NCBI RefSeq assembly: GCF_004328705.1
Contig: NZ_CP035319.1
Location: forward strand, 4,030,001 to 4,094,000
DNA from: Rhodococcus sp. ABRD24
GTDB taxonomy: Bacteria; Actinomycetota; Actinomycetes; Mycobacteriales; Mycobacteriaceae
Direction: 5' to 3'
DNA length: 64,000 bases
Positions 1,947 through 26,669 of this stretch are shown in pieces. A program made the position numbers and the translations under genes. The stretch's first letter is position 1. Every line of letters starts with the position of its first letter. The notes beneath the pieces were generated by a model that saw only the letters and a program-made list of their open reading frames with translations, was not told the origin of the DNA and searched no databases.

Positions 1947-2139
1947 TGCCTACGTCGTTCGCGTTGTCCTCGCGGATCGGCAATGCTACGGTCCCGCGGT
2001 TGTTCCGCTGAACCTGATCGTTCGCTGATTTCGGGGACCCGCGCGGCGGGCTCGGTGGATGTGTCGGGCGGGCGGCACCAGGTCGCCGGTGACGAGCGGC
2101 TGTCGGTTGTGTGGACGCGGGGACGGTAAGGACAGGTAC

Positions 2140-2772
2140 ATGGCCAGGCAGGATCGGGCGGAAGCGACCCGCGACTCGGTACTTCGTGGTGCCGCCGAGG
2201 TCTTCGGCCGGCTCGGATACGCGCAGTCGAGTCTCAGCGAGATCATCATCGAGTCGAAGGTGACGAAGGGTGCGCTCTACTTTCACTTCGCGTCCAAGGA
2301 GGAACTCGCGCGTGCCGTCATCGACGAGGGCTGCGCACGGTTGGACGCCGCGGTTCTGCCGTGGCTGGATCGGCGGACTCCGGCGCTCGAGGCGCTGATC
2401 GGAATGTCGTGTGTCATCTCCGACACCGCGGCGACCGATGTGCTGGTTCGTTCGATGTTCCGCCTGGTCACTGAGATCGGTGACTATCGTGGCTCAGGCA
2501 CCGCGATCTTCGACACCTGGCTCCGGACCCATTGCGTCCTCACCCGCCGCGCGGCCACCGAGGGCGACTTGCGTGCGGACGTGGATCCGGACGAGGTAGG
2601 GCGGTTGTTGCTCGAGTTGGTCAGCGGCGTCCGCCTGCTCGCTGCGGCCACCCGCGAACTCGACGACCTCGCGCCTCGCCTGGGTGGGGTGTGGCAATCG
2701 ATCCTGCCTGTGTTCGTACCGGAATCGAAGGTCGAGTACTTTCGTCAGTTCGCCGCCCGCCGTTTGCGCTGA
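2140..2772 (+). CDS. TetR-family regulator resembling gamma-butyrolactone receptors
   Basis: A 210-residue TetR regulator. The N terminus (QDRAEATRDSVLRGAAEVFGRLGYAQSSLSEI, then SKVTKGALYFHFASKEELARAVIDE) is close to the ArpA/ScbR type of gamma-butyrolactone receptor, which keeps the VTKGALYFHFxSKEELA stretch. The C-terminal part is less diagnostic. The ATG at 2140 places the helix-turn-helix at the expected distance from the N terminus. It is the first gene of the accessory block that carries the carrier-protein operon and reads in the same direction, so it is the natural candidate to control it. No gene for a butyrolactone synthase (AfsA type) is visible in the window, so the ligand is open. 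Family assignment is from pattern only. Confidence 0.8.
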   Translation: MARQDRAEATRDSVLRGAAEVFGRLGYAQSSLSEIIIESKVTKGALYFHFASKEELARAVIDEGCARLDAAVLPWLDRRTPALEALIGMSCVISDTAATDVLVRSMFRLVTEIGDYRGSGTAIFDTWLRTHCVLTRRAATEGDLRADVDPDEVGRLLLELVSGVRLLAAATRELDDLAPRLGGVWQSILPVFVPESKVEYFRQFAARRLR

Positions 2773-3003: not shown

Positions 3004-4065
3004 GTGCCACAAAGCAATTCCAGTGCGAGATCATTGGCCGAACGGGGAGAGCTGATCGGGTCGGTGATTGCCGGCCGGTGGGCTTCGGACGTGGACGGGG
3101 AGGGGCGATTTCCGCGCGAGGCGGTTGACGGGCTGTGCCATCAGGGTGTGCTGGGCAGTGCCGTGCCGGTCCACCTTGGCGGGGGCGGCGCATCGATGTC
3201 CGAAATATGTGAACTTGTACGGATTCTCGGGCGTCATTGCGCTTCCACTGCGATGGTCCTCGCAATTCATCAGGCGATGGTGTTTGCGATTTCCCGGCAC
3301 GGGAGCGGGGGGCGCTTCGACCGGGTGCTGTGTGAGATCGCGGATGATCAGTTGCTCGTGACCGGGTGTTTCCGCCAGCCTGCCCGCTTGGGGGAGGGCA
3401 GCTCGTCGACCACTGCGGGAGCGACGGTTCTTTTCGGTGAGGAAGCTGATGTCGTGCTAACCCGAGTCGGCGTAGCCGACGGGGCGGGCGGTGGTCACGA
3501 AGACGGGCTGGCGCTGGTCCGGACCGACGAAATCGCTTTGCGCCAGGAGTCTTACGGTGACGGGCTGGGGCTGCGTGGGCTCGGCTGGAACACCTACTCG
3601 TTGGAGGTGCCCGACCACGCTGGTGATCGCTTCTGTGACAGGTTCGGCCGCGTCGCGGCAATGACGCTCGAACCGGCACTTCGGCTTCTGTCGGGAGCAG
3701 CCGGAGTGGGGATCGCCGATACCGCGCTGGACACGGCCGGTCGCTTCGTCGTGGATCACGGATCGCTTGGTTTCGTTGACGATTGGTCGGAGCATGCGCT
3801 CGAGCTCGCTCAGTCGGAGGGTGCTCGCGACGCGGCCTGGGATTGCATCCTCGGGCATGCTCGGAACTTCGGTGACTGTGCGGTGGCGGGTATCGACTCC
3901 GGGTCGACAGTCGCGTCGGCGATGGGTATCTGCGGCCCGGCGGGGTATCGCGAGACGGGAGAGTTCGGCCTCGGGCGCCAACTGCGGGACTCTCTCGGGA
4001 TCCGGGAAATGGTCGTTGCTGCGATCGGCATCGAGCGCGGTGGGCGGATCTCGGATAGGTTCTGA
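3004..4065 (+). CDS. Acyl-CoA dehydrogenase-like protein, shortened middle domain
   Basis: A 353-residue flavoprotein-like protein. The N-terminal helical domain (RFPREAVDGLCHQGVLGSAVP, then ILGRHCASTAMVLAIHQ) and the C-terminal segment ending in CGPAGYRETGEFGLGRQLRDSLG match the second dehydrogenase of this locus (4885-6072). The middle beta-domain is short: where the second enzyme has the TTEVGIGGDVRRS motif plus about 25 residues, this one has only LVTGCFRQPARLGEGSSS and a truncated strand. It may be a non-catalytic partner, as in the alpha2beta2 dehydrogenases of mycobacteria, or a diverging duplicate. The GTG at 3004 follows AAGGGGGAG at good spacing. It precedes the operon with a gap of about 150 bases. 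Confidence 0.75.
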   Translation: MPQSNSSARSLAERGELIGSVIAGRWASDVDGEGRFPREAVDGLCHQGVLGSAVPVHLGGGGASMSEICELVRILGRHCASTAMVLAIHQAMVFAISRHGSGGRFDRVLCEIADDQLLVTGCFRQPARLGEGSSSTTAGATVLFGEEADVVLTRVGVADGAGGGHEDGLALVRTDEIALRQESYGDGLGLRGLGWNTYSLEVPDHAGDRFCDRFGRVAAMTLEPALRLLSGAAGVGIADTALDTAGRFVVDHGSLGFVDDWSEHALELAQSEGARDAAWDCILGHARNFGDCAVAGIDSGSTVASAMGICGPAGYRETGEFGLGRQLRDSLGIREMVVAAIGIERGGRISDRF

Positions 4066-4093: not shown

Positions 4094-4217
4094 CCTCATT
4101 ATCCAGGGTGATCAGTCTCTTATTGTCGGGTTGTGCGGGCGTGCGGTAGCTTGTGATCCGGTTTGCTGCGGGGCGCTGACCGTCTGTCGATCGAGGTGGG
4201 CACGATGGGGGGTGCAT

Positions 4218-4649
4218 ATGTCCGGGAGAACGGTGACCACCGGAGGTTCGCGGATCGGGTGCGACGTCGCGATGGTCGGCGACGTCGACCGCAGCATCGA
4301 GCGGTTCGGTGAGCGATACCTGCGTCGAGTCTTCACCGAGCGGGAGGTGGCGGAATGCGCCGGCCCGATTCAGGCGTGCCGACTTGCAGCGAGATTTGCT
4401 GCAAAGGAGGCGGTGATGAAGGTGCTGCGTCCGTCGGACGACGCGGTGCCCTGGACGAACATCGAAGTGCGGCGGGCGAGTTGGGGCGGCTGTGTCGTCG
4501 AGCTGTCGGGTAGTGCGGCTCGTCTGGCCGCGCAGCAGGGTGTCGGTGAGGTGCAGATTTCGATTTCCCACGACGGCGGCGTTGCGGTGGCCATGGCTAC
4601 TGCCGTCGTTCTCGGTGGGGCCGAACTGAACAGGGGGGAGTGGTCATGA
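4218..4649 (+). CDS. Holo-[acyl-carrier-protein] synthase-like phosphopantetheinyl transferase
   Basis: Transfers the 4'-phosphopantetheine arm of CoA to a carrier-protein serine. The 143-residue length and motifs fit AcpS: IGCDVAMVGDV at residues 13-23 (metal-binding Asp16) and FAAKEAVMKVL at 60-70 (Glu64), plus the QISISHDGGVAVAMA C-terminal strand. The ATG at 4218 has a G-rich ribosome site (GATGGGGGG) and removes an unconserved upstream extension. The gene overlaps the carrier-protein gene by ATGA, so the likely substrate is that carrier protein. An AcpS in a pathway operon suggests a dedicated activator rather than the housekeeping copy. Confidence 0.9.
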   Translation: MSGRTVTTGGSRIGCDVAMVGDVDRSIERFGERYLRRVFTEREVAECAGPIQACRLAARFAAKEAVMKVLRPSDDAVPWTNIEVRRASWGGCVVELSGSAARLAAQQGVGEVQISISHDGGVAVAMATAVVLGGAELNRGEWS

Positions 4650-4888
4650 CGGAGAGTGCCATCCGGGATGTGCTCGATCGGCATGCGCGCCTGGTGGAGG
4701 ATGCGCGCCGCATCGATTCCGCGTCGGACTTGTACGAATTGGGATTGACATCGCACGCAAGTGTGAACGTGATGCTGGCGCTGGAGGATTCGTTCGACAT
4801 CGAGTTCCCCGACGAGTTGCTGCGCAAGAGCACCTTCGAGAGTGTCGATGCCATCCGGAGGGCCCTGTCGTCGCTGGGGGCAGGATGA
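4646..4888 (+). CDS. Small acyl/aminoacyl carrier protein
   Basis: An 80-residue four-helix carrier protein. The attachment site is Ser36 in DLYELGLTSHASVNVM, where family members read LGLxS. This is followed by LALEDSFDIEFPDELL, typical of the carrier proteins served by stand-alone amino acid:carrier protein ligases (Bradyrhizobium and Agrobacterium examples). The ATG at 4646 overlaps the stop of the AcpS gene; a GTG two codons earlier is possible. Its own stop overlaps the next start. Expected role: carry an activated amino acid as a thioester to the dehydrogenase encoded next. Confidence 0.93.
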   Translation: MTESAIRDVLDRHARLVEDARRIDSASDLYELGLTSHASVNVMLALEDSFDIEFPDELLRKSTFESVDAIRRALSSLGAG

Positions 4889-6072
4889 GCGTCTCGGCGG
4901 TCGGTGTGCTCGAGGGGGATGCGGTCGAGCGTGCCACCCGGGTCGCCGCCGACGTGGCGGCGCTGTGGGCGGACGAGGTGGACCGCGACGCTCGTTTCCC
5001 AGTAGAGGCAGTCGATGCGCTGAGGGGTGCCGCGCTCCTGAGCTGTGCTGTGCCACGGCATCGCGGTGGCGAGGGTGCCTCCCTGCCGGCGCTGTGCCGG
5101 ATGGCGCGGATTCTCGGACACCACTGCGCAGCAACAGGAATGGTCTTCGCGATGCATCAGAGTCAGGTGATGTCTCTGGTGCGGCACGGTGACAGTGCGG
5201 CGATGAGAGACTTCGTCGATGCTGCTGTCGGTGCACAGTATCTACTGGCCTCTGCTACCACGGAAGTCGGGATCGGCGGGGATGTACGACGGAGTTCCTG
5301 TGCGATCGAGATGGTCGCCGGCCGTGCGACGGTATCGAAGAATGCCCCGGTCATCTCGTACGGAGAGTACGCGGACGCGGTTCTCGTGACGGCCCGGCGC
5401 ACGCCGGACAGCCCGGCGAGCGACCAGGTACTGGTCGTGTGCCGGCGCTCCGATGTCGAGCTCGAGCCCACCGGAGCCTGGAACACGTTGGGGCTCCGCG
5501 GTACCTGCAGTCCGGGCTTCGCGCTCCACGCCTCTACGGAACCTGGTCTGATCTGCACCGATCCGTACTCGGAGATCTCCAGTGAGACAATGCTGCCGGT
5601 GTCGCACTGTCTGTGGTCGGCGGTCTGGCTCGGTATCGCTGACGCCGCTATGGACAAGGCGCGCAGGTTTGTCCAGTCTGCGGGCCGCCGAGACCCCGGT
5701 GTCGTGCCGCCCGGGGCACTTCGGCTCGCCGAATCGGCCGCTGCCCACCAGCAGATGGTGGATCTCGTGGACAGTGCCGCCGTGCGCTTCGAAAGGGCAG
5801 CTCGAGATCCTGACGACACTGTCGTTCGCGTTCCGAACGGAGTGGGCTTCGCGCTCGCGATGAACAATCTGAAGGTCAGTACGTCGAACCTGGTGGTCGA
5901 CATCGTAGGTCAGGCGATGCTGATCTGCGGTATCGCGGGATACCGCGAGGACGGGAAGTACAGCTTGGGTCGCCATCTGCGTGACGCGTACGGCGCTCGC
6001 ATCATGGTGAACAACGACCGCATCACCGCCAATTCCGCGCAGCTGGCGTTGGCATACCGGGGGGCATTGTGA
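4885..6072 (+). CDS. Acyl-CoA dehydrogenase-family flavoprotein, probably acting on a carrier-bound substrate
   Basis: A full-length 395-residue member of the acyl-CoA dehydrogenase fold. The N-terminal helical domain has ILGHHCAATGMVFAMHQSQ. The middle domain has the FAD-contact motif SATTEVGIGGDVRRSS. The C-terminal helical domain ends in GIAGYREDGKYSLGRHLRDAYGARIM. It is translationally coupled on both sides (ATGA with the carrier protein, GTGA with the ligase). Relatives such as prolyl-carrier-protein dehydrogenases oxidise an amino acid while it is tethered to a carrier protein. By position that is the likely chemistry here, rather than fatty-acid beta-oxidation. I could not place the catalytic base with certainty. 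The shorter paralog at 3004-4065 could be a partner subunit. Confidence 0.88.
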   Translation: MSVSAVGVLEGDAVERATRVAADVAALWADEVDRDARFPVEAVDALRGAALLSCAVPRHRGGEGASLPALCRMARILGHHCAATGMVFAMHQSQVMSLVRHGDSAAMRDFVDAAVGAQYLLASATTEVGIGGDVRRSSCAIEMVAGRATVSKNAPVISYGEYADAVLVTARRTPDSPASDQVLVVCRRSDVELEPTGAWNTLGLRGTCSPGFALHASTEPGLICTDPYSEISSETMLPVSHCLWSAVWLGIADAAMDKARRFVQSAGRRDPGVVPPGALRLAESAAAHQQMVDLVDSAAVRFERAARDPDDTVVRVPNGVGFALAMNNLKVSTSNLVVDIVGQAMLICGIAGYREDGKYSLGRHLRDAYGARIMVNNDRITANSAQLALAYRGAL

Positions 6073-7010
6073 GCGAGCAACCGGCCGAAACCCTGACCGA
6101 TCTGGACCGGGCGCGTCTCGATCTTCGATGCGAACTGCTGACCTCGGGTTTGCTGATCGAGTCGTCGGTGCCGGGACTCTACGGGCGGTCCGGACAGTTC
6201 GAGGACATAGTGGACGGTATCGACCGTGTCGTGCGTGCTGCAGGCCCGGGTTCGGAGGCGATCCGCCTGCGGTTTCCTCCGATGTTGCCGCGCAGCGACT
6301 TCGAGCGAACCGACTACATTGCATCGTTCCCCAATCTGACCGGCGCTATCCACTCGTTCACCGGAACCAACGCCGATCACGCACGAATGCTGGCCGACCG
6401 CTCCGAGGGGAAGTCGTGGGACGGCTACTTGGAACCGGCGGACACGATGCTGGTGCCGGCCGCGTGTCATCCGGCGTACCCGATGTTCACCGGGGCACTA
6501 GCCGAAGGCGGGGTCCTCCTGGACGTGTACGGATACTGCTTCAGGAACGAGCCTGCCGTGGATCCGGCTCGGATGCAGGCCTTCCGGATGCACGAGTTCG
6601 TCGTGATCGGCGATCCCGACACCGCTGCGAATCATCGCGCTTCATGGATAGACCGGGGACTCCAGGTGCTGGACGATCTGGGACTGGAGGCGACCGCGGT
6701 TGTCGCCAACGATCCGTTCTTCGGTCGTGCGGGCCGGATGCTGGCAGCCAACCAGCGCAACGAGAACCTGAAGACAGAGTTGACAATTCGTCTGTACGGC
6801 GATCTGGACGAGGGCACCGCGGTGGTGTCGTGCAATTGCCACCAGGACCACTTCGGCGCCACCTTCGGCATCGAGACCTCGGACGGATCTGTGGCGCACA
6901 GCGCGTGCGTCGGGTTCGGAATGGAACGCATCGCGCTGGCGATGCTGCGCACGCACGGTTCGGATCCACGGCGGTGGCCGGCGGGGGTGCGCAGTCGGAT
7001 GGCGCTGTGA
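6069..7010 (+). CDS. Amino acid:[carrier protein] ligase (class II aminoacyl-tRNA synthetase-like)
   Basis: A 313-residue catalytic core resembling an atypical seryl-tRNA synthetase without a tRNA-binding arm. Class II motif 2 is CFRNE at 157-161 followed by FRMHEFV. Motif 3 is GFGMERIAL at 282-290 (Arg287). The expected zinc ligands are all present: Cys133 (AACHP), Glu176 (HEF) and Cys280 (ACVGFG). This matches my recollection of Bradyrhizobium Bll0957, which activates glycine or alanine and passes it to a carrier-protein pantetheine. The GTG at 6069 overlaps the preceding stop. The amino acid used cannot be read from sequence. Confidence 0.92.
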   Translation: MSEQPAETLTDLDRARLDLRCELLTSGLLIESSVPGLYGRSGQFEDIVDGIDRVVRAAGPGSEAIRLRFPPMLPRSDFERTDYIASFPNLTGAIHSFTGTNADHARMLADRSEGKSWDGYLEPADTMLVPAACHPAYPMFTGALAEGGVLLDVYGYCFRNEPAVDPARMQAFRMHEFVVIGDPDTAANHRASWIDRGLQVLDDLGLEATAVVANDPFFGRAGRMLAANQRNENLKTELTIRLYGDLDEGTAVVSCNCHQDHFGATFGIETSDGSVAHSACVGFGMERIALAMLRTHGSDPRRWPAGVRSRMAL

Positions 7011-7996
7011 CCGGACCGCTGCTGCCGGTCGCAACCGCCGGTTATTCGCCGCACGGTATCCACTCGTCGCGGCGGATCTGGGCGGAGACCAACTGCTACG
7101 TCGATCTGTGGGTGGAGATCCTGCACGTGATCGGTGCCGACCCGGTGCCCGCCGCCGCATGTGCCTTCTCGTCGCGATTCGACGGCCGACAGTGGACGTT
7201 CCTGAAGTTCAGGCCGGAGGACCTGGCGGCGTTGTACGGGATCGACGTCGCCGAGATGAATATCTGGCGCCCCGCAATCGACCACCTGGAACACAACCTC
7301 GATGCGGGCATGCTGTCGACGGTCGAGGTGGACGGATTCTGGCTGCCGGACACCGCCGGTACGAGTTATCGGCGGCAGCACGTCAAGACGACCATCGCCC
7401 CGAACCGGATCGACCGAGCCGTGGAAGAGCTCGAGTACTTCCACAACAGCGGTTACCACCTGCTCCGCGGCGAGGACTTCCGGTGCCTGTTCGGTGTCGG
7501 AGACGAACCGGTGTCGTCGTTCGCCCCGTACGTCGAGCAGGTGCGGTTCGACCGGCGTCCCCTCCTTGACGAAGGCCGGTTCGGCGCGGTGCTCCGCCGG
7601 CATCTGCGGACGCGCTCGCCGGACAATCCGGTGGCAGGTCTCGCGGCGCGCGTCGAGTCAGACGCGGCGTGGCTACGGGTAGCCGGGATGGAAGCCTTCC
7701 ATTCGTGGACCTTCGGAACGCTGCGGCAGTGCGGCGCGTCCGCCGAATTGGCCGCCGATGTCTGCGAATTCATGGATTCCCGTGGCTATCCGGGCGCGGC
7801 GGCCGCCGCCGGTGGGTTCCGGGCTGTTGCCGAGGGCGCCAAGTCCGTCCAGTTCCGCATGTCGCGGGTCGCACACGGACGCGCCGTCGACCCCCGAGCC
7901 CAGCTTGCAGCGATGGCGGAAGAGTGGGAGCGGTCGATGGACATTGTCGTGAAAGCTGCAGAAGCTGACCAACCGATTCAGGTGTCCGCACGGTGA
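7007..7996 (+). CDS. DUF1839 family protein
   Basis: A 329-residue soluble protein of unknown activity. I recognise the DUF1839 family from the WAETNCYVDLWVEILH start and the WTFLKFRPEDLAALYGIDVAEMNIW stretch. Family members, as I recall, sit next to amino acid:carrier protein ligases in rhizobia and actinobacteria. No membrane segment or signal peptide is visible. The GTG at 7007 overlaps the ligase stop and the 3' end overlaps the GH2 start, so it is translated with the operon. It may accept or transfer the carrier-bound amino acid, but that is inference from context only. Confidence 0.82.
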   Translation: MTGPLLPVATAGYSPHGIHSSRRIWAETNCYVDLWVEILHVIGADPVPAAACAFSSRFDGRQWTFLKFRPEDLAALYGIDVAEMNIWRPAIDHLEHNLDAGMLSTVEVDGFWLPDTAGTSYRRQHVKTTIAPNRIDRAVEELEYFHNSGYHLLRGEDFRCLFGVGDEPVSSFAPYVEQVRFDRRPLLDEGRFGAVLRRHLRTRSPDNPVAGLAARVESDAAWLRVAGMEAFHSWTFGTLRQCGASAELAADVCEFMDSRGYPGAAAAAGGFRAVAEGAKSVQFRMSRVAHGRAVDPRAQLAAMAEEWERSMDIVVKAAEADQPIQVSAR

Positions 7997-10539
7997 CCGA
8001 CATCGAGATGGTAGATCTGCTGGACGGCGCGTCGTGGCGCTGCGTCGCAACCGACCCCGACACGGTGACTGAACCTGGGAAGCTTGACGACGTCGAGGGG
8101 CGATGGCTGTCGGCCACGGTGCCGGGTACCGTCGCGTCCGCTCTACGCGCGGTGGACGGCGACCCGGCGGCACGGTCGGCGGTCGTCGACGACAGTGACT
8201 GGTGGTTCGTCACTGAACTACCCGGTCGCCGTCCGCATGCCGGTCCGTGGAGACTCCTGTCGGACGGCCTTGCGACACACTGCGACATCTGGGTCGACGA
8301 TCGACTGGTCGCGTCGTCCGTATCGATGTTCGTGCCGGTTGCGGTGTTGCTGCCAGACCTTCCCGCGGGGTGCTCCGTCGCATTGAGGTTCCGCTCGCTG
8401 ACGGCGGAGTTGCGGATGCGGCGTCCGCGCGGCCGTTGGCGGTCGACACTGGTCTCCGCGCAGGGACTCCGGTGGATCCGGACTTCTCTGCTGGGCCGTG
8501 CGCCGGTGTTCTCCGGCGTGCCCGCACCGGTCGGGCCCTGGCGGCCCCTCCGGATCCTGCCGGGCCGGGCTCCACGAACCAGGGGTGTCCGCGTCGACAC
8601 CTCGGTGCACGGCGAAGTCGGCGTCGTGAGGGTGTCGGGCGCTGTCACCGGCTGTGCCTCGGCCACGAAAGTCACCGTCCGGATCGGAGAAGCCACGGTC
8701 GATGCGCAGCTCGCGCAGTCCGACGCGGGGGACCGGGAGTTCGCGGTCGTGGTGGAGATTCCGCGGGTCTCACCGTGGTGGCCACACACACATGGCGACT
8801 CGCCGCTGTACGACCTGTCGATCGAGTCGGGCGGGAGGACCCTGAGCTCCCGGCGGATCGGATTCCGTGACATCCGGATAGAGCGCGGCCCCGCATTCAA
8901 CGGTTTCGCGGTGTACGTCAATGGCGTCGAGGTGTTCTGCCGGGGCGCGGTGTGGACACCTACTGATCCGATCGGACTCAACGATCGAGACGGAACTCGA
9001 AGGACACTCGAGCGGGTCGCCGAGGCCGGGATCAACATGATCCGGATACCGGGGACGATGGTGTACGAAACCGACGAATTCTGGAGTGACTGCGCGGAGC
9101 TCGGAATCATGGTGTGGCAGGACGTCATGCTCGCTACGCTCGATCCACCCGATGACCCGGAGTTCGAGAACCTGCTCGTCGGCGAGGTCACCCACCTGCT
9201 GCGCCGCCGGGGAGGGAACCCAGCTCTGGTGGTTCTGAGCGGTGGCAGCGAGACCGAGCAACAGCCCACGATGCTGGGTTCGGTGGATCGGCACGTCCGG
9301 GCGGTGCATGAGATCCTGCCTGCACTCGCGTCGGCGGAGGCGCCCGGTGTCGCCTACGTGTCTTCCTCGCCGTCCGTTCCGGCGGACTCCTCGATGCTGC
9401 CGACACGCCTCAGCAGTGGAGTGAGCCACTATTTCGGAGTGGGCGCCTACCGCCGTCCGCTCGGCGACGTCCGGCAGACGCGGGTGCGGTTCGCGGCGGA
9501 ATGCCTTGCGTTCGCGGTGCCGCCGTCCGATCGAGCCGTCGAGAAGCATTTCGGCAGCGCCGCCGTCGCCGGCCACGACCCGCGCTGGAAGGCCGCAGTC
9601 CCTCGTGACCGTGGCTCGTCCTGGGACTTCGAGGACGTACGGGACCACTACGTGAGGTCGGTGTTCCACGAGGACCCAGCGGAGGTGCGGTGGTCAGATC
9701 CCGAGCGATACCTCGATCTCGGCAGGGCCGCGATCTGCGAGGCTGTCGGTGAGAGCTTCCAGTTCTGGCGGCGGCCCGACTCCGGGTGCGCCGGCGCGCT
9801 CGTCCTCGCATTGCGTGACCTCGAGCCTGGGCCAGGCTGGGGCCTGCTCGACTGGGCCGGCGCGCCCAAGGCTCCCTGGTTCGTCTTGCGATCACTCTCG
9901 CGTCCTGTCTGCGTGCTGGTGACCGACGACGGACTGGATGGACTGCGGATCGACGTTCGCAACGACACCACCGGCACCGTCGATGGCGAACTGCGGGTGC
10001 GCTCACACACCCGCAATGGTGCGGTGTCACTCGATGTCGCGGAGGCGGTCCGAATCGCACCTCACGACGGGCTGTCGTGGTCACTCGATGCGCTCATCGG
10101 CCGGTTCACCGACCTGTCTCACGCCTTCCGGTTCGGACCGCAGGTCCACGACAGTCTCACCGTCACGCTGCTCGGTCCGGCGGGCGAGGTCCTCGACGAA
10201 CGGGTCCGTTTACTCGGGGGGAGCGCTCGTCCGCTCGAACGGTCCGTCGGGCTGACGGCGACGGCCCGACAGGACCGGGCCGGGGCGTGGATCGTTGACG
10301 TCCGGACCGAGGCACTCGCGCAGTACGTCCGGTTGGACGTGCCGGGCTTCGACCCGGTGGACTCGTGGTTCCACCTGGCGGCCGGAAGCGGCCGTGCGGT
10401 ACCGCTGCGCCCGTCGGAGGAGTGCAGCGGGGAGCAGCCTGTCCGGGTGGTGGGCCGCGTCGGGGCCCTGAACTCGCTCGTGAGCGCGCCGATCGTCGCC
10501 GACACCCTGCTGAGCCAGGACGTGCATAGAATCGACTAG
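7993..10539 (+). CDS. Glycoside hydrolase family 2 protein, beta-mannosidase-like
   Basis: An 848-residue GH2-type protein: jelly-roll and immunoglobulin-like domains in the first 300 or so residues, then a TIM barrel beginning near [25 protein letters not shown], then further beta domains. Two glutamates line up with catalytic positions of beta-mannosidases. Glu420 sits in [12 protein letters not shown], where mannosidases have WxGNNE. Glu503 sits in RFAAECLAF, where they have SEFG. The acid/base motif is therefore altered. No signal peptide is seen, so it is probably cytoplasmic. It is the last gene of the coupled operon (GTGA overlap with DUF1839). Its presence suggests the amino acid ends up on, or is released from, a sugar; this is inference. 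Confidence 0.85.
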
Positions 10540-10609
10540 GCTGGCGCGGGCCGCTATTGGCTGCTCGCCCATGCTCGAGCTGTTCGCCAGCAGTTCGTCG
10601 TCACTGCTC

Positions 10610-10614
10610 AGGAG
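10610..10614 (+). promoter_or_regulatory. Ribosome binding site deciding the mfd start
   Basis: AGGAG seven bases before the TTG at 10622. The upstream in-frame ATG at 10571 has no such site. The protein starting at 10622 ([15 protein letters not shown]) resembles the start of the mycobacterial protein. Confidence 0.7.
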
Positions 10615-10621
10615 TGCGTTC

Positions 10622-13600
10622 TTGACTTCCCCGCCGTCCGTTGCCGACACCCCACTCACCGGATTGGCGAGGACAGCGCTCGGCCACAGCGCGTTCGCCG
10701 GGATTGCCGACGAAATCGGGCACACCGGCGTCGATGTGGTGGCGCCGCAGCCCGCGCGGGCTCTCGTGGCCGCCGCACTGGCCGAACACACTCAACTTCT
10801 CCTGGTGACGGCCACCGGTCGAGAGGCCGACGACCTCACGACCGAACTGCGCCAGATGCTCGGTGCCGGAGTCGCGCAGTTCCCGTCGTGGGAGACCCTG
10901 CCGCACGAGCGGCTGTCGCCGAGCGCCGATACGGTCGGACGCCGGCTCGAGGTGCTGCGCCGTCTGGCCCGGCCCGAGGATCGCCTGTACGGTCCGCCGC
11001 TGCGGGTAATCGTGACGACCGTACGATCTCTCGTTCAGCCGATGGCACCGGGACTGGGTGAGATCGAGCCGGTCGTGCTCGAGGTCGGTACCGAGCACGA
11101 CGTCACAAGACTGATCGAACGCCTCGTCGAGATGGCGTACACGCGTGTCGACATGGTCGGCAAGCGCGGCGAGTTCGCGGTCCGGGGCGGCATTCTCGAT
11201 CTGTTCCCGCCCACGGCCGATCATCCGGTGCGTATCGAGTTCTGGGGCGACGAGGTAACCGAACTCCGCGCGTTCTCGGTGGCCGATCAACGCTCGCTGG
11301 CCGAGGTCGACGTGCAGACGGTGATCGCGCCCCCGTGCCGCGAACTGCTCCTCACTCAGGATGTGCGTGACCGGGCGGCCCAGCTGGCGGTGGACAACCC
11401 GGCGGACGCGGCGCTCGTGGAGATGCTCGACAAGATGTCGGCCGGCATCCCGGTCGAGGGTATGGAGGCCTTGCTGCCGGTCGTACGCCCGAGCCAGCTC
11501 CAGCTTCTTGCCGAGATCCTGCCGGCGGGTACCCATGTTCTGCTGTGCGACCCCGAGAGGATCCGCACGCGGGCAACCGACCTCGTCCGCACGGGCCAGG
11601 AGTTCCTCGAGGCATCGTGGACGGCCGCCTCGATCGGCGGCGCGGCGCCGCTGGACACCTCGGTGCTGAAGGGCGACGGAATCGATCTGGGCGCATCCGC
11701 CTACCGGTCGCTGCGGCAGGTGCGGGAGTCTGCCGAAGCGGAGGGTCGGCCCTGGTGGACCATCAGCCCGCTGTCCTCGGGAAGCGGTGAGGAGCTGGAG
11801 CTGGCCGTGACTCCTGCGCCGCAGATCCGCGGCTCCGACGACCTGCTCGCCGAATTGTTCGTGACGCTGCGCGCCCACGTGGCCACTGGCGGCCGCGCGG
11901 CGGTCGTGGTCGCGGGAGCGGGCACCGCGCAGCGCGCACTCGAGCGGATGAGGGAGGCCGAGGTACCCGCCGCGGAGCTTCCGCCGGGTGCCGAGCTGCC
12001 GCGTGGCCAGGTCGGCGTCCTGCGGGGCTCACTACAGGACGGCTTCGTGCTCGCCGGCTCCGAGAAGGAGCCGGGCCTGGTGGTCGTGACCGAGACGGAC
12101 CTGACCGGGAATCGGGTGGCCGCCGCCGGTGACGGCAAGCGGCTGCCGGCCAAGCGTCGCAACCAGGTGGACCCCCTCGCACTGACAGCGGGCGACATGG
12201 TGGTGCACGACCAGCACGGCATCGGCCGGTTCGTCGAAATGGTCGAGCGCACGATCGGCGGCGCGCGGCGCGAGTACCTCGTCATCGAGTATGCGGCCAG
12301 CAAGCGGGGGCACCCCGGCGACCGGCTGTTCGTGCCGATGGAATCGCTGGACCAGCTGTCCCGCTACGTCGGTGGCGAGCTGCCGGCACTCAGCAAGCTC
12401 GGCGGATCCGACTGGACCAACACGAAACGCAAGGCACGCAAGGCGGTTCGCGAGATTGCCGGTGAGCTGGTGCAACTGTACGCCGCCCGTCAGGCCGCAC
12501 CGGGCCACGCCTTCGGTCCGGACACGCCGTGGCAGAAGGAGATGGAGGACGCCTTCGCGTTCACCGAGACGCAGGACCAGCTGACGGTCATCGATGAGGT
12601 CAAGGCCGACATGGAGAAGGCGGTGCCGATGGACCGCGTCGTGATCGGCGACGTCGGCTATGGCAAGACCGAGGTCGCGATCCGCGCCGCGTTCAAGGCC
12701 GTCCAGGACGGCAAGCAGGTCGCGGTGCTGGTCCCGACGACCCTGCTCGCACAGCAGCACCTGCAGACGTTCACCGAGCGTATGGCGTCGTTCCCCGTGA
12801 AGGTGCGTGGGCTGTCCCGCTTCACGGATGCGGCGGAGTCCAAGGAGACCATCGCGCAGATGGCGGACGGCGAGATCGACATCGTCGTCGGCACGCACCG
12901 TCTGCTGCAGACCGGTGTCCGGTGGAAGGATCTCGGTCTCGTGATCGTCGACGAGGAACAGCGCTTCGGTGTGGAACACAAGGAACACATCAAGGCGCTC
13001 CGCACGCACGTCGATGTTCTCACCATGTCGGCGACGCCGATCCCGCGCACGCTCGAGATGAGCATGGCGGGTATCCGGGAGATGTCGACGATTCTGACCC
13101 CGCCGGAGGAGCGTCACCCGATTCTCACGTACGTCGGCGCGTACGCCGACAAGCAGGTGGCCGCCGCGATTCGCCGAGAGCTGCTGCGCGACGGCCAGGT
13201 TTTCTATGTGCACAACCGGGTCAGCTCGATCGACAAGGCAGCCAAGCGTATTCGCGACCTGGTGCCCGAGGCGCGGGTAGTGGTCGCGCACGGTCAGCTG
13301 AACGAGGACACGCTCGAGAAGACCGTGCAAGGGTTCTGGGAGCGCGAGTTCGACGTGCTCGTTTGCACGACGATCATCGAGACCGGCCTCGATATCTCCA
13401 ACGCGAATACCCTCATCGTCGAGCGAGCCGACTCGCTCGGCCTGTCCCAACTGCACCAGTTGCGTGGCCGCGTCGGTCGCAGCCGGGACCGTGGCTACGC
13501 GTACTTCCTGTATCCGCCGGAAAAGCCGTTGACCGAGACCGCCTACGACCGGCTCGCGACGATCTCGCAGAACTCGGACCTCGGTGCCGGCATGGCCGTC

Positions 13601-14257
13601 GCGATGAAGGACCTCGAAATCCGCGGTGCCGGAAACGTTCTGGGCGCCGAGCAGTCCGGCCATGTCGCCGGCGTCGGCTTCGATCTGTACGTGCGTCTGG
13701 TCGGTGAGGCCGTCGAGGCCTACCGCGCAGCAGCCGACGGGCGCCCGATCACCACCGACGAAGGTCCCAAGGAGGTGCGAATCGACCTCCCGGTCGACGC
13801 CCACATCCCGCCCGACTACGTCGCGAGCGACCGCCTGCGCCTCGAGGCGTACCGCAAGCTCGCCGCTGCGTCGGACGCCGACGCGATCACGGGCGTCTTC
13901 GACGAACTCGTCGACCGCTACGGCCCGCTGCCGGAGGAGGTACGGCGCCTGGTCTCGGTGGCAAAGCTGCGGCTGCTGTGCCGGGAATACGGGCTCGAAG
14001 AAGTCGCGGTCACCGGAACGCAGCTGAAGATCTCGCCGATGGCGTTGCCGGATTCGAAGCAGTTGCGGCTCAAGCGGATCTATCCGAGTGCCCAGTACCG
14101 TGCCACCACCGGCATGATCCAGCTTCCGGTACCGCGCACCGGAACCGGTGGCGTCGGTGCGGAGCGGATGCGTGACGTGGAATTGTTGCAGTACATCGCC
14201 GACCTCCTGCTCGCGCTCGACGGCAAGGCGGCGGGCGCAGCAGTCATGGAGGCCTGA
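10622..14257 (+). CDS. mfd: Transcription-repair coupling factor Mfd
   Basis: ATP-driven translocase that removes RNA polymerase stalled at DNA lesions and recruits the UvrABC system. The 1211-residue protein has the full architecture: UvrB-like N-terminal module ([17 protein letters not shown], then [13 protein letters not shown]), the RNA-polymerase-interaction domain ([16 protein letters not shown]), and the RecG-like helicase with Walker [16 protein letters not shown] and DEEQ box [11 protein letters not shown]. Motifs IV-VI follow ([10 protein letters not shown], then [11 protein letters not shown]) and then the C-terminal TRCF domain. The start is taken at TTG 10622. It precedes mazG by 3 bases, as in mycobacteria, so the two form an operon. 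Confidence 0.97.
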
Positions 14258-14260
14258 CCT

Positions 14261-15133
14261 GTGACGGTGGTCCTACTCGATCCGCTGCGCCCCACGACCG
14301 TGCCGCTCGAGGCCGTACCCTTGCTCGCCGGAGGCATCGAGATCACCGACTGTGTGCCCGAGTCCGCCCGGATGCTGCTGCCGGATCCCGTTCCCGGCGC
14401 GCCGGTCCTGATCTCCACTGATCCGACGCATCCGGCGGTGCAGGTGCGGATCGCGGCAGGTGAGCGTGTGATCACCTCGCCGCGTGTCGCGGGAGAGAAC
14501 CTCGTAGAAGCGGCCGAGGTGATGGACCGGCTGTGGGGATACGGTGGATGGGAGGTCACCCAGACGCACGAAAGCCTGGCCCACTACCTCGTCGAGGAGA
14601 CCTACGAGGTTCTCGATGCCATCGCGTCGGCGAATCCGGACGATCTACGCGAGGAACTGGGCGATCTGCTGCTGCAGGTGCTGTTCCACTCACGGATCGC
14701 CAACGCGGCTGGACGATTCGACGTCGACGACGTCGCGGGCGCACTGGTTGCCAAGCTCGTCCACCGCAGTCCGCACTTGTCCGAGGACGCGGTCGGTCCG
14801 ATCGACATCGCAGAGCAGGAGCGTGCATGGGAGGTGCGCAAGGGCGCGGAGAAGGCCCGGGGTTCGTGCGTCGACGGTATCGCAGCCAGCCAACCGGCGA
14901 CGTCGTTGGCCGCGAAAGTGATCCAGCGCGCCGGTAAGGCGGGTTTTCCGGCCGAGTTGGTGCCGGCCGAGTTGGTGCTCGGAGCACAGCAGGTGACACG
15001 GGCAGAGGATGAGTTGCGGACAGCAACGAATACCTTCACTGCCCGGGTCAGGTCGGTAGAGGCCGCGGCACGGGCGGACGGAGTGATGCAGTTGACGGCT
15101 TCCGACTGGATCCGGTATTGGTCGCGAGCCTGA
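14261..15133 (+). CDS. mazG: Nucleoside triphosphate pyrophosphohydrolase MazG
   Basis: House-cleaning enzyme hydrolysing (often damaged) NTPs to NMP and pyrophosphate. The 290-residue protein has an N-terminal region as in mycobacterial MazG, then the all-alpha MazG domain. Its metal-binding pattern is intact: VEETYEVLDAI, then EELGDLLLQVLFHSRI, with a following VxxKLVHRSPHLSED. The start is a GTG 3 bases after mfd. It is slightly shorter than the mycobacterial protein because the C-terminal tail ends soon after SDWIRYWS. It is the last backbone gene before the glycan cluster. Confidence 0.93.
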   Translation: MTVVLLDPLRPTTVPLEAVPLLAGGIEITDCVPESARMLLPDPVPGAPVLISTDPTHPAVQVRIAAGERVITSPRVAGENLVEAAEVMDRLWGYGGWEVTQTHESLAHYLVEETYEVLDAIASANPDDLREELGDLLLQVLFHSRIANAAGRFDVDDVAGALVAKLVHRSPHLSEDAVGPIDIAEQERAWEVRKGAEKARGSCVDGIAASQPATSLAAKVIQRAGKAGFPAELVPAELVLGAQQVTRAEDELRTATNTFTARVRSVEAAARADGVMQLTASDWIRYWSRA

Positions 15134-15458
15134 TCGGGCGCGTTACGCCGGGTGATTGAGGGATGAATCACGTTTGCTTCGGTGGACGCCGGAAACGGGG
15201 ATCAGGTATGTTTCCGTCAGTCAAAAAGACTGTAGGTCGAGCATTGTGCAATTTTTCGGACCGGGGTGGGGGCTCGGGTCGGAGGCAGTGCCGACGGCGA
15301 TGAACTGAATTCTCTGTTGCCCGCGACCGTGATCCGTCGCGCCTCCGACGCGTCGCGTCCAGGCGGCGCGTGTTCTCGTCGGATCCGGTCGTGCTCGCCT
15401 TCATCGCTCGATGTCGGAAGTCCGAAGCGGAAACCGAAGTGGAAGACCTGGGGGGACG
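15134..15458. other. Non-coding stretch upstream of the glycan cluster
   Basis: About 325 bases without a credible gene between mazG and the first glycosyltransferase. It includes a small hairpin CAGTC-AAAAA-GACTG at 15218-15232 and a locally AT-rich patch around 15220-15260. It probably holds the promoter and leader of the glycan operon, but I cannot point to firm -35/-10 boxes. Confidence 0.5.
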
Positions 15459-16310
15459 ATGACCCTGTACGCGCGTGAAATCGACAATCTCGGAGGCGAT
15501 GTCGGGGATCTGGGTGATCTCGGGGGCGGCGTCGATCTCGCGGAGTCCGTGCCGGTCGAGGAAGCCGCGGAACCGCCGCCGCGCCCGACGGTCACCGTCG
15601 TCGTGCCTGCCCTCAACGAGGCCCGAAACCTGCCGCACGTCGCCGCACGGATGCCGGCGGATATCGACGAAATCGTCTTCGTAGACGGGCATTCGGTCGA
15701 CGACACCGTCGAGGTCGCGAAGAAGTTGTGGCCGCGGGCCAAGATCGTCCTGCAAACCCGGCGCGGCAAGGGCAATGCGCTTGCCTGCGGCTTCCAGGAG
15801 GCGACGTGCGACATCGTCGTCATGATCGACGCCGACGGCTCCACGGATCCGGCCGAGATCCCACGCTTCGTCGACGCTCTGGTAGCCGGAGCCGACTTCG
15901 CGAAGGGCAGTCGCTTCATCGCCGGCGGGGGGAGTTCGGACATCACGGTGAGTCGTCGGATCGGCAACAAGGCGCTCAACTCGATCGTCAATATCAAGTT
16001 CGGCGCCGCCTTCACTGATCTCTGCTACGGCTACAACGCTTTCTGGAGGAATCACGTGCCTGTGATGCAGCTGCCCGCGGCGGGTCTGGCCGAAGCGCAA
16101 TGGGGAGACGGGTTCGAGATCGAGACTCTCATCAACGTGCGTGTGGCCAACGCCGGGCTGCGGATCGCGGAGGTCCCCAGCTTCGAGCAGGACCGGATCC
16201 ACGGCGTCAGCAACCTCCACGCGGTGCGCGACGGGTTGCGAGTCCTGCGGACCATTCGCAGTGAACCGCGTGCGCGGCCGCGTGTGATGTCCACCGATCG
16301 CCAGGGATGA
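15459..16310 (+). CDS. GT2 glycosyltransferase, polyprenyl-phosphate-sugar synthase type
   Basis: A 283-residue family 2 glycosyltransferase with a GT-A fold. It has PTVTVVVPALNEARNLPHV near residue 45, DEIVFVDGHSVDDT, the metal-binding MIDADGSTDP, GSRFIAGGGSSD and a C-terminal EIETLINVRVANAGLRIAEVP. The spacing matches dolichol/polyprenol-phosphate mannose or glucose synthases, which make lipid-linked single-sugar donors. No trailing membrane domain is present. The ATG at 15459 is preceded by CTGGGGGGA; a longer in-frame start lacks such a site. It opens a tightly packed cluster, and its product could feed the GT-C-like membrane protein at 24459. Confidence 0.88.
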   Translation: MTLYAREIDNLGGDVGDLGDLGGGVDLAESVPVEEAAEPPPRPTVTVVVPALNEARNLPHVAARMPADIDEIVFVDGHSVDDTVEVAKKLWPRAKIVLQTRRGKGNALACGFQEATCDIVVMIDADGSTDPAEIPRFVDALVAGADFAKGSRFIAGGGSSDITVSRRIGNKALNSIVNIKFGAAFTDLCYGYNAFWRNHVPVMQLPAAGLAEAQWGDGFEIETLINVRVANAGLRIAEVPSFEQDRIHGVSNLHAVRDGLRVLRTIRSEPRARPRVMSTDRQG

Positions 16311-17315
16311 GTGAAGTCGATGAATCCGACACTAGTCCAATCATTTTCGATGAACGGTCCCGATGTGGAGGCGGCCACGTCGCTGTCGGTGGTCGTCTGT
16401 GCCTACACAACCGAGCGCTGGAGTGATCTGTCGGCGGCAGTGCGGTCGGTGCTCGACCAGCGGCAGGCGGTGCACGAGTTGCTTGTCGTGATCGACCACT
16501 GCGACGAACTCTTCGAGCGGGCCTCCGCGCAGTACGGGGACAACCTGTCGGTGCGTGTCCTGGAGAACGCAGAGGCCCGTGGGCTGTCCGGTGCGCGGAA
16601 CACCGGGGTCCGGGCCGCAACCGGTGCGGTCGTCGCGTTCCTCGACGACGATGCGGTGGCGGCGCCGGACTGGGCGGAGTCGCTCCTGGTCCACTACGAC
16701 GATCCCGACGTCATGGGTGTGGGGGGATATGTAGCCCCGCGGTGGCCGAAGTCCCGGCCGAACTGGATGCCACCGGAATTCGACTGGGTGGTCGGGTGCA
16801 GCTATGTCGGCCAGCCGCTTGCCGTAGCGCCTGTGCGGAACTTCATCGGATGCAACATGTCCCTGCGGCGCACGGTCTTCGCCGACGTAGGCGGCTTCGA
16901 CGATGCTGTCGGGCGAGTGGCGTCGAAACCCGCCGGCTGTGAGGAGACAGAGTTGTGTATCCGGGTCCGGTCTCGGCATCGGTCCGCGCGGTTGCTCCAC
17001 GACCCCGCGGTCCGGGTGACGCACCGGGTCACGGAGCCTCGGACGACATTCCGCTACTTCGTCAGGCGCTGCTACCACGAAGGAATCTCGAAGGCCGTTG
17101 TCACGGAGTTGGCCGGCTCCCGCGATGCGCTCAGCAGCGAGCGCGAGTACACGACACGGGTGTTGCCGCGTGCGGTAGTGACCGGGCTCCGGTCACCGTC
17201 GGACGGTGGCCTCGCCCGCGTCGGTGCAGTGCTCGCGGGCCTCGTGGTGACGATCGCCGGCTACTCGCGTGGACGTACAGCCCGCAGACTGTGCCGCGGA
17301 GCCGGGTATGTCTGA
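16311..17315 (+). CDS. GT2 glycosyltransferase
   Basis: A 334-residue family 2 glycosyltransferase. Landmarks are LSVVVCAYTTERWSDLSAAV near residue 25, ARGLSGARNTGVRAATG, the DxD-like FLDDDAVAAPDW, a nucleophile/acceptor region NFIGCNMSLRRTVFADVGGFD, and a C-terminal amphipathic helix that may touch the membrane. It likely adds a sugar to a lipid-linked glycan at the inner face of the membrane. The start is GTG 16311 directly after the previous stop; an ATG at 16320 is equally plausible. The 3' end overlaps the next start by 8 bases. Confidence 0.85.
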   Translation: MKSMNPTLVQSFSMNGPDVEAATSLSVVVCAYTTERWSDLSAAVRSVLDQRQAVHELLVVIDHCDELFERASAQYGDNLSVRVLENAEARGLSGARNTGVRAATGAVVAFLDDDAVAAPDWAESLLVHYDDPDVMGVGGYVAPRWPKSRPNWMPPEFDWVVGCSYVGQPLAVAPVRNFIGCNMSLRRTVFADVGGFDDAVGRVASKPAGCEETELCIRVRSRHRSARLLHDPAVRVTHRVTEPRTTFRYFVRRCYHEGISKAVVTELAGSRDALSSEREYTTRVLPRAVVTGLRSPSDGGLARVGAVLAGLVVTIAGYSRGRTARRLCRGAGYV

Positions 17316-18630
17316 GGACCGCGACCGGACGAAGCCGGTCCTCCTGCACCCCGTGCTGCCGTCCAGCGAGGTGCCCACGTGGCCAGGAGCGGTGTGGGTG
17401 GGTCGGCTCGACCTGGGCGCGTCCGGCGTCACCGACCGAGATGGCTACCGATTGGTCGGAGCGGACGGATATCGTCGGGCACGACTGGCAATCCTCCGCG
17501 ATCGGGAGCTGTCGGGATTCGTGGAGGTCGACGTTCACGGGGATCATCTCGACGGGGCGGAGGTCTCACGGGCGGTAGCGGGGTTGAGCCCTGCTACCGG
17601 GCCCAGGCTCCGGATCCTGAACAGGGATGTGGCAAGGCCGGTCACCGTGGTCGTGTGTACCCGCGACAGGGTAGCGATGCTCCGGGTCGCGCTGGAGTCG
17701 ATTCTCGCATCCGACTATCCCGACTTCGACGTCGTCGTCGTCGACAATGCGTCTGCCACCGACGAAACCCGACGCTATGTCGACGAGTTCGATGATCCGA
17801 GGGTGCGGGTGGTCGTGGAACCACGGGCAGGCCTGTCGCGGGCCCGCAATGCGGGGCTGCGTGCGGCCACGGGGGAGATCGTCGCCTTCACCGACGACGA
17901 TGTCGTCGTCGACTCTGGATGGCTCGGGGAATTGACGCGGGCGTTCGACTGGGATTGTTCGGTTGCGTGCGTGTGCGGAATCGTGCCGAGCGGGGAGATT
18001 CGCACGCCGGCGCAGGCCTACTTCGATCAGCGCGTCGGTTGGGCCAGTTCGTGCACGCCGCGACTCTTCGATCTCGCCGACCCGCCCGCCGACGTGCCGT
18101 TGTTCCCGTTCCAGGTAGGTATCTACGGCACCGGGGCGAACTTCGCGGTCGACCGCCGGACGGCCGCATCGCTCGGCGGTTTCGACGAGGCGCTCGGCGC
18201 CGGATCGCCCACCGACGGTGGCGAGGACCTCGACATGTTCTTCCGGGTCCTCCACGCAGGTCGACAGCTCGCATATCAGCCGGCGGCCATAGTCTGGCAC
18301 CGGCATCGCGCTGACAACGCGGCCCTGGCCGTGCAGGCCCGTGGTTACGGGTTGGGCCTTGGCGCGTGGCTGTGCAAGATCATGCTGCATCCACGGACAG
18401 CGGGGCTCGCGGTACGAACCGCGATTGTCAAGGTGCCCACGGTCGTCCGCCTCTCACGCAAACTGTCAGTCGATGTCGCGCCGTCTCGGGCGCTCGCCGA
18501 CTCGTTGCCCCCGGGCATCGGGGCGGTCGAGCTGTGGTCGATTGCCAAGGGGCCCGCGGCATATCTGCGGGCACGGCGGGAGGGCCGACGTCGAGCCCCA
18601 CTCGAAGGGCTCGACGATGGCTGCGTCTAG
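17308..18630 (+). CDS. GT2 glycosyltransferase with N-terminal extension
   Basis: A 440-residue protein. An N-terminal domain of about 110 residues (LHPVLPSSEVPTWPGAVWVG, then RLVGADGYRRARLAILRDRE) of unknown function precedes a GT2 domain: VTVVVCTRDRVAMLRVALES, VVDNASATDETRR, GLSRARNAGLRAATGEIVAF, the metal site TDDDVV and GTGANFAVDRRTAASLGGFDEALG. The N-terminal part recurs in actinobacterial GT2 enzymes. The ATG at 17308 overlaps the upstream stop (ATGTCTGA); a longer in-frame start exists but would overlap more. The 3' end overlaps the hydrolase gene by 14 bases. Substrate unknown. Confidence 0.85.
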   Translation: MSEDRDRTKPVLLHPVLPSSEVPTWPGAVWVGRLDLGASGVTDRDGYRLVGADGYRRARLAILRDRELSGFVEVDVHGDHLDGAEVSRAVAGLSPATGPRLRILNRDVARPVTVVVCTRDRVAMLRVALESILASDYPDFDVVVVDNASATDETRRYVDEFDDPRVRVVVEPRAGLSRARNAGLRAATGEIVAFTDDDVVVDSGWLGELTRAFDWDCSVACVCGIVPSGEIRTPAQAYFDQRVGWASSCTPRLFDLADPPADVPLFPFQVGIYGTGANFAVDRRTAASLGGFDEALGAGSPTDGGEDLDMFFRVLHAGRQLAYQPAAIVWHRHRADNAALAVQARGYGLGLGAWLCKIMLHPRTAGLAVRTAIVKVPTVVRLSRKLSVDVAPSRALADSLPPGIGAVELWSIAKGPAAYLRARREGRRRAPLEGLDDGCV

Positions 18631-21738: not shown

Positions 21739-21739
21739 C

Positions 21740-22936: not shown

Positions 22937-23631
22937 TGACCGCACGGCTCGGCTCGCTCCCTGCTCGCAGGCTGTCGCCTTGGCTTCTCGTCGCCTCGGT
23001 GCAGTTCTTCGTGTGTGAGTTCCTGGTGGCAGGGACCTGGCGCGGCCGATACAGCTACAGAGAGAATTACGTCAGTGATCTGATGGTGCCGTTCTGCGGA
23101 CCGGACGGCAGCGATCCGTGCAGCCGGACCGCCGTCGTCTTCCGCGCGTCCGTGGTTCTCGTGGGGCTCGCGTTCCTGGTGGCGGCGTGGGCGTGGCGCG
23201 GCATCGGTGCGATCGGCTCGGCGGGCGCCGCGTACCTGTCGGTCGCCGGCCTCGGTGCGGTGGTGACCGGTGTCGCGAGGCCGGACACCTCCTGGATCGT
23301 GCATTCCGTCGGCGCAACTCTCTTCTTCCTGTTCGGCAGTCTCGCCTGTGTGACCATCGCGTTGTCCGCCCGGGATGTCGTGAGCGGGGCTCTGAGCAGC
23401 GCCGTGCCCTCGATATCCGGGTGGATCGGCGCGACCCTCGTGTGCGGCGTCGTCGGTGCGGCTTCCTACTTCTGTTACAGCTACGGGTGGGACGGTGGCC
23501 TGGGTATCGGCGGAATGGAACGTCTGGGTGGCTACGCGACCGTGCTGGGATTCGTGGGTTGCATGCAGATCGTGCGCTGTATCGGAGCGATCGTTCCCGG
23601 CGTCGCGTCGGTGGGCGGTCGGGATGGCTAG
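22936..23631 (+). CDS. DUF998 family membrane protein
   Basis: A 231-residue protein with six predicted membrane helices. The N-terminal helix is followed by YSYRENYVSDLMVP, the hallmark of DUF998 (Y-S-x-x-x-N-x-x-SDL). Function is unknown for the family. The start overlaps the preceding stop (TGATG), with GTG 22933 as an alternative. Its 3' end overlaps the GH16 gene by 8 bases, so it belongs to the glycan operon. Confidence 0.85.
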   Translation: MTARLGSLPARRLSPWLLVASVQFFVCEFLVAGTWRGRYSYRENYVSDLMVPFCGPDGSDPCSRTAVVFRASVVLVGLAFLVAAWAWRGIGAIGSAGAAYLSVAGLGAVVTGVARPDTSWIVHSVGATLFFLFGSLACVTIALSARDVVSGALSSAVPSISGWIGATLVCGVVGAASYFCYSYGWDGGLGIGGMERLGGYATVLGFVGCMQIVRCIGAIVPGVASVGGRDG

Positions 23632-26606: not shown

Positions 26607-26669
26607 CAGTTGGGACAAGCCTCCCTGCGGCTGAACCGGCGGTGACGGCGGGGGTGCGACGATGAGCGC

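Follow-up and report, generated by a model that had tools for sequence, protein, structure and literature searches.

The stretch of the Rhodococcus sp. ABRD24 genome analysed here (the window: 64,000 nucleotides, G000:C1:4030001-4094000 of a 5.10 Mb genome) carries an operon of six genes, encoding a 4'-phosphopantetheinyl transferase, a stand-alone carrier protein, an acyl-CoA-dehydrogenase-fold flavoprotein (ACAD2), a ligase resembling class II aminoacyl-tRNA synthetases (aaRS), a DUF1839 protein and a GH2 glycoside hydrolase. We favour, with moderate confidence, the view that this operon is an aaRS-based, carrier-dependent module by which an amino acid is attached to an amino sugar in the precursor of a surface glycan. 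More tentatively, it may follow a widespread logic like that of lincosamide synthetase, in which the aaRS-like ligase loads the carrier, a flavoprotein devoid of the usual catalytic base oxidises or oxygenates the amino acid, and DUF1839, with a fold like that of CcbD, ligates it onto an amino sugar of a capsule or exopolysaccharide; if true, this would amount to aaRS-based decoration of surface glycans with modified amino acids and would tie translation-type enzymes to bacterial surface chemistry in several phyla. The core of this reading, an amino acid passed to a cell-surface amino sugar, was already published in 2010, in a note added in proof to PMC2922099 that links the ligase with liposaccharide genes and with a carrier, a redox enzyme, a glycosidase and a conserved but uncharacterised protein. 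In that note, the uncharacterised protein Atu2574 is predicted to join an amino acid by amide ligation to a cell-surface sugar derivative, and the reaction of the redox enzyme is given as a probable monooxygenation. Atu2574 is presumably DUF1839. The original prediction for this DNA, made from the letters alone, called the end product unknown, which is only partly right, as the neighbourhood and a role in glycan aminoacylation were stated in the 2010 note (PMC2922099; Mocibob et al., second-hand), with the same kinds of gene and the same predicted amide ligation. New by comparison are the assignment of a CcbD-type fold to DUF1839, the lack of the usual base in the flavoprotein, a fused hydrolase as frequent partner, and a two-sided locus, split by mfd-mazG, that three sister genomes lack at this site.

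Read from the first possible start, the six open reading frames lie at 4131-4649, 4640-4888, 4885-6072, 6069-7010, 6128-7996 and 7993-10539 of the plus strand, and each contains an in-frame start (4218, 4646, 4885, 6069, 7007 and 7993, respectively) with which all five junctions become 4-base ATGA or GTGA overlaps, as originally described. These overlaps alone are weak evidence, since 524 of the window's 713 TGA triplets could form such an overlapping start; the stronger case for one unit comes from homology and conserved gene order.

To our knowledge, the role of tRNA synthetase-derived carrier-protein ligases has been open since 2010. Among solved structures, the operon's ligase comes nearest to amino acid:[carrier protein] ligases (4h2w, E 1.5e-71; 3mey, 4.3e-69), and the protein, at 313 residues, has no tRNA-binding N-terminal domain, its match to the type-2 SerRS 3w3s beginning at residue 309 of the latter. 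Aligned with 4h2w, it retains R159 and E161 (motif 2), R287 (motif 3) and the zinc ligands C133, E176 and C280, all invariant in 11 sequences; the carrier has its Ser36, which does not vary when aligned with 78 sequences from the loci; the sites named in the original prediction are thus confirmed. With the curated ligase and carrier models, these conserved sites support its proposal that an amino acid would be loaded on a dedicated carrier. The genome holds four matches to the phosphopantetheinyl transferase family, one of which is the operon gene, and this probably activates the operon carrier. Glycine or alanine is presumably the substrate, going by work on relatives. Loading of Ala, Gly and Ser by such ligases is given in a table of PMC9437257.

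The proposed hand-over of the loaded amino acid to DUF1839 draws support from the predicted fold. The structure model of this protein (predicted local distance difference test, pLDDT, 93.8) has strong fold matches only to CcbD, AziU3 and CtaG, the best of them including a complex with a carrier domain, and Cys30, which opens helix 30-41 of the model, is kept together with His146 in 46 of 46 sequences. An enzyme of CcbD/LmbD type would be expected to have a Cys-His-Glu triad; for DUF1839, a passage in PMC10318531 proposes C(T/S)H. One in PMC12945683 describes CcbD as a cysteine enzyme that couples an amino acid held on a carrier with an amino sugar; a link between DUF1839 and CcbD was not found in print in the openly licensed papers searched. 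Lincosamide synthetase (LmbD or CcbD with an adenylation domain and a carrier protein) is alike in that the amino acid on its carrier is joined to an amino sugar by a cysteine enzyme, CcbD, whose fold matches the DUF1839 model, but it loads through the adenylation domain of a non-ribosomal peptide synthetase, whereas the operon would use an aaRS-like ligase and its acceptor is likely a surface glycan; no sequence match between the two was found in the PDB at E<=10. Viewing DUF1839 as a CcbD-like condensing enzyme turns a guess from context into a defined two-step reaction that is testable with four purified proteins.

The gene set recurs widely in other genomes. Loci were taken as the best 80 of 571 relatives from a ligase-alignment scan of named genomes, a sample biased to close relatives, and partner genes were located by tblastn and extension of open reading frames. 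These 80 loci, which include Actinomycetota, Planctomycetes, Gammaproteobacteria, Burkholderiales and Myxococcota, contain the carrier in 78 cases, the flavoprotein in 68, DUF1839 in 48, the phosphopantetheinyl transferase in 44 and GH2 in 42; carrier, flavoprotein, ligase, DUF1839 and GH2 are collinear in 24, and seven loci are partial. DUF1839 lies on the strand opposite to the ligase in 17 loci, in 16 of which GH2 shares the DUF1839 strand. Among the six DUF1839 loci without GH2, three stop near a contig end (L071, L094, L097), one holds merely a short stretch of DUF1839 (L062), and two (L086, L108) have room beside DUF1839 but no GH2 match. The short stretch (L062:8586-8690) sits beside the carrier in a Mycobacterium bin and is possibly a decayed cassette. 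A fused double alpha/beta hydrolase, encoded further downstream in the window, accompanies the ligase in 55 of the 80 loci, including some that lack DUF1839. In the annotation of plasmids from Rhizobium leguminosarum and Azospirillum brasilense, carrier, flavoprotein, ligase, DUF1839 and GH2 stand in order, followed in Azospirillum by an alpha/beta hydrolase; on a Tsukamurella plasmid, glycosyltransferase genes surround ligase and carrier, and neither flavoprotein nor DUF1839 is annotated.

The same association is seen starting from DUF1839. In 298 genomes of the order, a set not chosen by ligase, DUF1839 occurs in 10 and the ligase model matches in 43, with scores above the cut-off in 12; by coordinates, nine of the 10 have a ligase within 2.5 kb of DUF1839, and the tenth (G159, 85% complete) gave no ligase match. 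Three of 396 genomes of the phylum have DUF1839, two of them already counted in the order and the third (G432) with an adjacent ligase. Across 37 loci, distances of the partners correlate with those of the ligase (Mantel rho 0.74 for the carrier, 0.78 for the flavoprotein, 0.82 for DUF1839 and 0.84 for GH2, with none of 999 permutations as high), although shared host ancestry alone would give part of this correlation. The closest sequences to the window's DUF1839 and ligase, where named, are mostly from Rhodococcus. Elsewhere, G238 carries a second ligase copy with an in-frame TGA (G238:C1:1641171-1642094) in addition to one without it.

The operon is very likely one half of a single locus interrupted by the conserved host genes mfd and mazG, the other half being a glycan gene set at 15411-27524 that the original prediction did not cover (Table 1). 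This is concluded because other ligase loci carry relatives of the downstream genes. In nine Rhodococcus loci (L041-L044, L047-L050 and L074), the genes after the ligase are related to those for the fused hydrolase, both polytopic membrane proteins, the unassigned soluble protein, the DUF998 protein, one GH16 and one GT2. L051 and L053 combine the hydrolase and one polytopic protein with the remaining two GT2 enzymes and carry DUF1839 and GH2 on the opposite strand. Relatives of the larger membrane protein occur in nine of the 80 loci. In L037 and L038, the cassette, mfd and mazG are followed by a gene of a sugar-phosphate transferase cluster. The window's own candidate features of a surface-glycan locus are the three GT2 glycosyltransferases, identified by profile, and putative export and polymerase proteins, assigned by hydropathy only. 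Glycosyl- or sugar-phosphate transferase markers were found in 34 of 59 cassette loci of at least 18 kb (43 of all 80) and in none of 20 control regions (Fisher p 2e-6), a contrast tempered by controls from four genomes only, not taxon-matched, by markers drawn from the cassette loci and by the relatedness of these loci. Together, the glycan genes around the cassette support the sugar acceptor that had been suggested.

Four sister genomes (G685, G686, G678 and G683) were compared at this site. Genes 85-92% identical to mfd are present in all four, as in L037 and L038, and mazG adjoins mfd in the sister genomes. G685, G686 and G678 have a glmU-like gene, a TetR gene, mfd, mazG and DyP/M75 genes without either half. 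G683 keeps an ScbR-like TetR gene (72%) and ACAD1 (46%), relatives of the genes upstream of the operon, beside mfd without the cassette (L173:12018-13924), a pair that could be a relic or independent. Beyond mazG, it has GT4, polysaccharide pyruvyl transferase, class III aminotransferase and pectate-lyase-like genes (L173:847-7345), and the site looks like a variable surface-glycan hot spot. DUF1839 is present in one of 14 genomes of the genus, that of the window, and nothing closely related to the fused hydrolase was found in the other 13 (top score 26 bits).

Table 1. Features of the locus in the window, with the evidence for each assignment
Feature	Coordinates	Strand	Evidence
TetR-family regulator, ScbR-like	2059..2772	+	NF041196 161.2 bits, cut-off 150
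Acyl-CoA-dehydrogenase-fold paralogue ACAD1 (start estimated)	3004..4065	+	PF02771 E 7e-12
4'-Phosphopantetheinyl transferase (holo-ACP synthase)	4218..4649	+	ACPS domain PF01648 51 bits, cut-off 25
Stand-alone carrier protein, Ser36	4646..4888	+	NF005480 98.7 bits, cut-off 72
Acyl-CoA-dehydrogenase-fold flavoprotein ACAD2, without both usual catalytic carboxylates	4885..6072	+	model pLDDT 92.3, residue counts
Amino acid:[carrier protein] ligase, class II aaRS-like	6069..7010	+	NF005479 439.4 bits, cut-off 357; PDB 4h2w
DUF1839, proposed CcbD-like cysteine condensing enzyme (Cys30, His146)	7007..7996	+	PF08893 E 4e-101
GH2, beta-mannosidase type	7993..10539	+	PF22666 30.9 bits, cut-off 27; profile E 9.9e-100 to 5n6u
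mfd, conserved host gene between halves, not part of system	10571..14257	+	TIGR00580 1049 bits, cut-off 800
mazG, conserved host gene between halves, not part of system	14261..15133	+	PF03819
GT2 glycosyltransferase	15411..16310	+	PF00535 80.7 bits
GT2 glycosyltransferase	16311..17315	+	PF00535 78.2 bits
GT2 glycosyltransferase, true start probably later	17269..18630	+	PF00535 104 bits
Fused double alpha/beta hydrolase like exosortase-A-associated hydrolases 2 and 1 (start estimated)	18617..20371	+	TIGR03101 90.8, TIGR03100 79.9 bits, both under cut-off
Membrane protein, ~10 transmembrane segments, flippase-like by shape (inferred)	20368..21738	+	hydropathy only
Soluble protein, 401 aa, HGLGD motif	21731..22936	+	sequence
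DUF998 membrane protein	22933..23631	+	PF06197 52.6 bits
GH16 glycoside hydrolase (start estimated)	23624..24466	+	PF00722 47.3 bits
Membrane protein, ~14 transmembrane segments, candidate polymerase or GT-C (inferred)	24459..26606	+	hydropathy
GH16 glycoside hydrolase	26670..27524	+	PF00722 58.6 bits

The part played by ACAD2 is less clear-cut. Profile alignments combined with MCAD and IVD numbering place V/I375 at the MCAD-type base position and S/A/C240 at the IVD-type one in all of the 68 sequences, and with no carboxylate at either, the original claim that the amino acid is oxidised while tethered is unproven and, as stated, not supported. A fold search leaves acyl-CoA dehydrogenases and monooxygenases tied, the classes not being separated, and oxygenation is as likely as dehydrogenation. 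ACAD2 has its fold or profile in common with carrier-tethered dehydrogenases (TcsD, ColB1 and prolyl-ACP dehydrogenase), which have the usual base that ACAD2 lacks, and with group D monooxygenases (DszC, MsuC and DnmZ), for which the reductase partner is not seen in the locus: no flavin reductase or electron-transfer partner is among its annotated window genes, the genome outside the window not having been searched. A variant of the favoured reading, in which the flavoprotein dehydrogenates or oxygenates the tethered amino acid and the oxidised product (for example an imino, oxime or keto acid) is transferred, is a real possibility, if one we would not assume. It gains from the closeness of the fold to TcsD and ColB1, which act on acyl-carrier or carrier-tethered amino acid substrates, from the acidic residue at 378 and from His91 and His241, all conserved in 68 of 68 sequences, and from the position of the gene, no more than 30 bases from where the ligase begins in 65 of the 68 loci that have it. 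It loses by the vacant base positions, by the missing electron-transfer partner and by the 12 of 80 loci in which no flavoprotein was found, even if two of these (L069 and L104) begin almost at the ligase and the gene may there only be cut off by the contig end.

The favoured mechanism would begin with the phosphopantetheinyl transferase, which, judging from its family, would activate the carrier at Ser36. The ligase, using ATP, would then activate a small amino acid and load it on the carrier thiol, as its family membership by sequence suggests, and ACAD2, where present, may tailor the tethered residue by oxygenation or dehydrogenation. DUF1839 would take up the aminoacyl group at Cys30 and pass it to a sugar amine, as CcbD does in celesticetin biosynthesis, a step for which the fold is predicted and the reaction inferred. 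In the last and weakest step, the probably intracellular GH2 enzyme would trim or release the sugar part. Building the acceptor glycan would be the task of the locus's other half (15411-27524), with its glycosyltransferases, hydrolase and membrane proteins. D-alanylation of teichoic acids (Dlt) is similar in that a surface polymer is decorated with an amino acid from a carrier, but the ligase, transferase and location are different.

Several findings weigh against this reading. Identity between DUF1839 and CcbD is only 14-15%, a search of the PDB with the DUF1839 profile returned no CcbD, CtaG or AziU3 chain even at E<=10, and CtaG (closthioamide) and AziU3 (azinomycin), which share the fold of the model, belong to different pathways; neither is known to be a sugar acyltransferase or to use an amino sugar as acceptor. 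Only five of the 12 order genomes over the ligase cut-off have DUF1839, and DUF1839 was not found in 32 of the 80 ligase loci, 28 of which have the fused hydrolase instead. No gene for making an amino sugar was identified in the cluster of the window, the operon is separated from the glycan genes there by mfd-mazG, and 25 of the 59 long ligase loci have no marker match.

The operon could instead make a small diffusible aminoacyl sugar, a product or signal of lincosamide or butirosin type, with the nearby glycan genes unrelated. The resemblance of DUF1839 to natural-product enzymes, the ScbR-like, autoregulator-type TetR gene upstream, the split by mfd-mazG and the long loci free of markers all fit such a product, which we nonetheless consider unlikely: many lineages have glycan genes next to the cassette, three sister genomes lack both halves at this site, and relatives of the window's downstream genes can directly follow the ligase. 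Slightly less probable still is that DUF1839 is a hydrolase or proofreader clearing misloaded amino acids and that the fused hydrolase is the real transferase. Papain-like cysteine enzymes often hydrolyse, and in 25 of the 28 hydrolase-bearing loci without DUF1839 the hydrolase lies close to the ligase end; the best fold matches of DUF1839, however, are biosynthetic enzymes rather than peptidases, one of them in complex with a carrier domain, and the two proteins coexist in 27 of the 48 DUF1839 loci. Entry of the loaded amino acid into a non-ribosomal peptide, the original proposal for these ligases as the 2010 note reports it (PMC2922099), seems very improbable here, with no condensation-domain family match among the genes tested at 2059-27524, of which that for the 401-residue soluble protein has no family assignment.

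The GH2 enzyme is closest in sequence and profile matches to beta-mannosidases. E420 and E503, presumably the catalytic acid/base and nucleophile, are conserved at 98% and 100% in a 41-row alignment and align with the glutamate motifs of 6byc. No N-terminal signal was seen by eye, on which basis the enzyme probably acts inside the cell; hydropathy gives one hydrophobic stretch near residue 114. Neither the smaller polytopic protein nor the soluble one has a Pfam match, and the larger polytopic protein has none over the cut-off; the HGLGD motif of the soluble protein suggests an HxxxD acyltransferase.

Just upstream of the operon, and likewise absent from the original prediction, lie the TetR gene, a probable local regulator, and ACAD1, which among the genome's other matches of ACAD2 scores highest (35% over residues 14-295). 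A gene 66% identical to the TetR gene stands upstream of the same cassette in L038. Further out, a tRNA-Gln gene lies on the minus strand upstream of the locus (1064-1135), and on the far side genes for a DyP peroxidase and an imelysin/cupredoxin (M75) protein, possibly for iron uptake, occupy 27756-30177 and adjoin the site in three sister genomes too.

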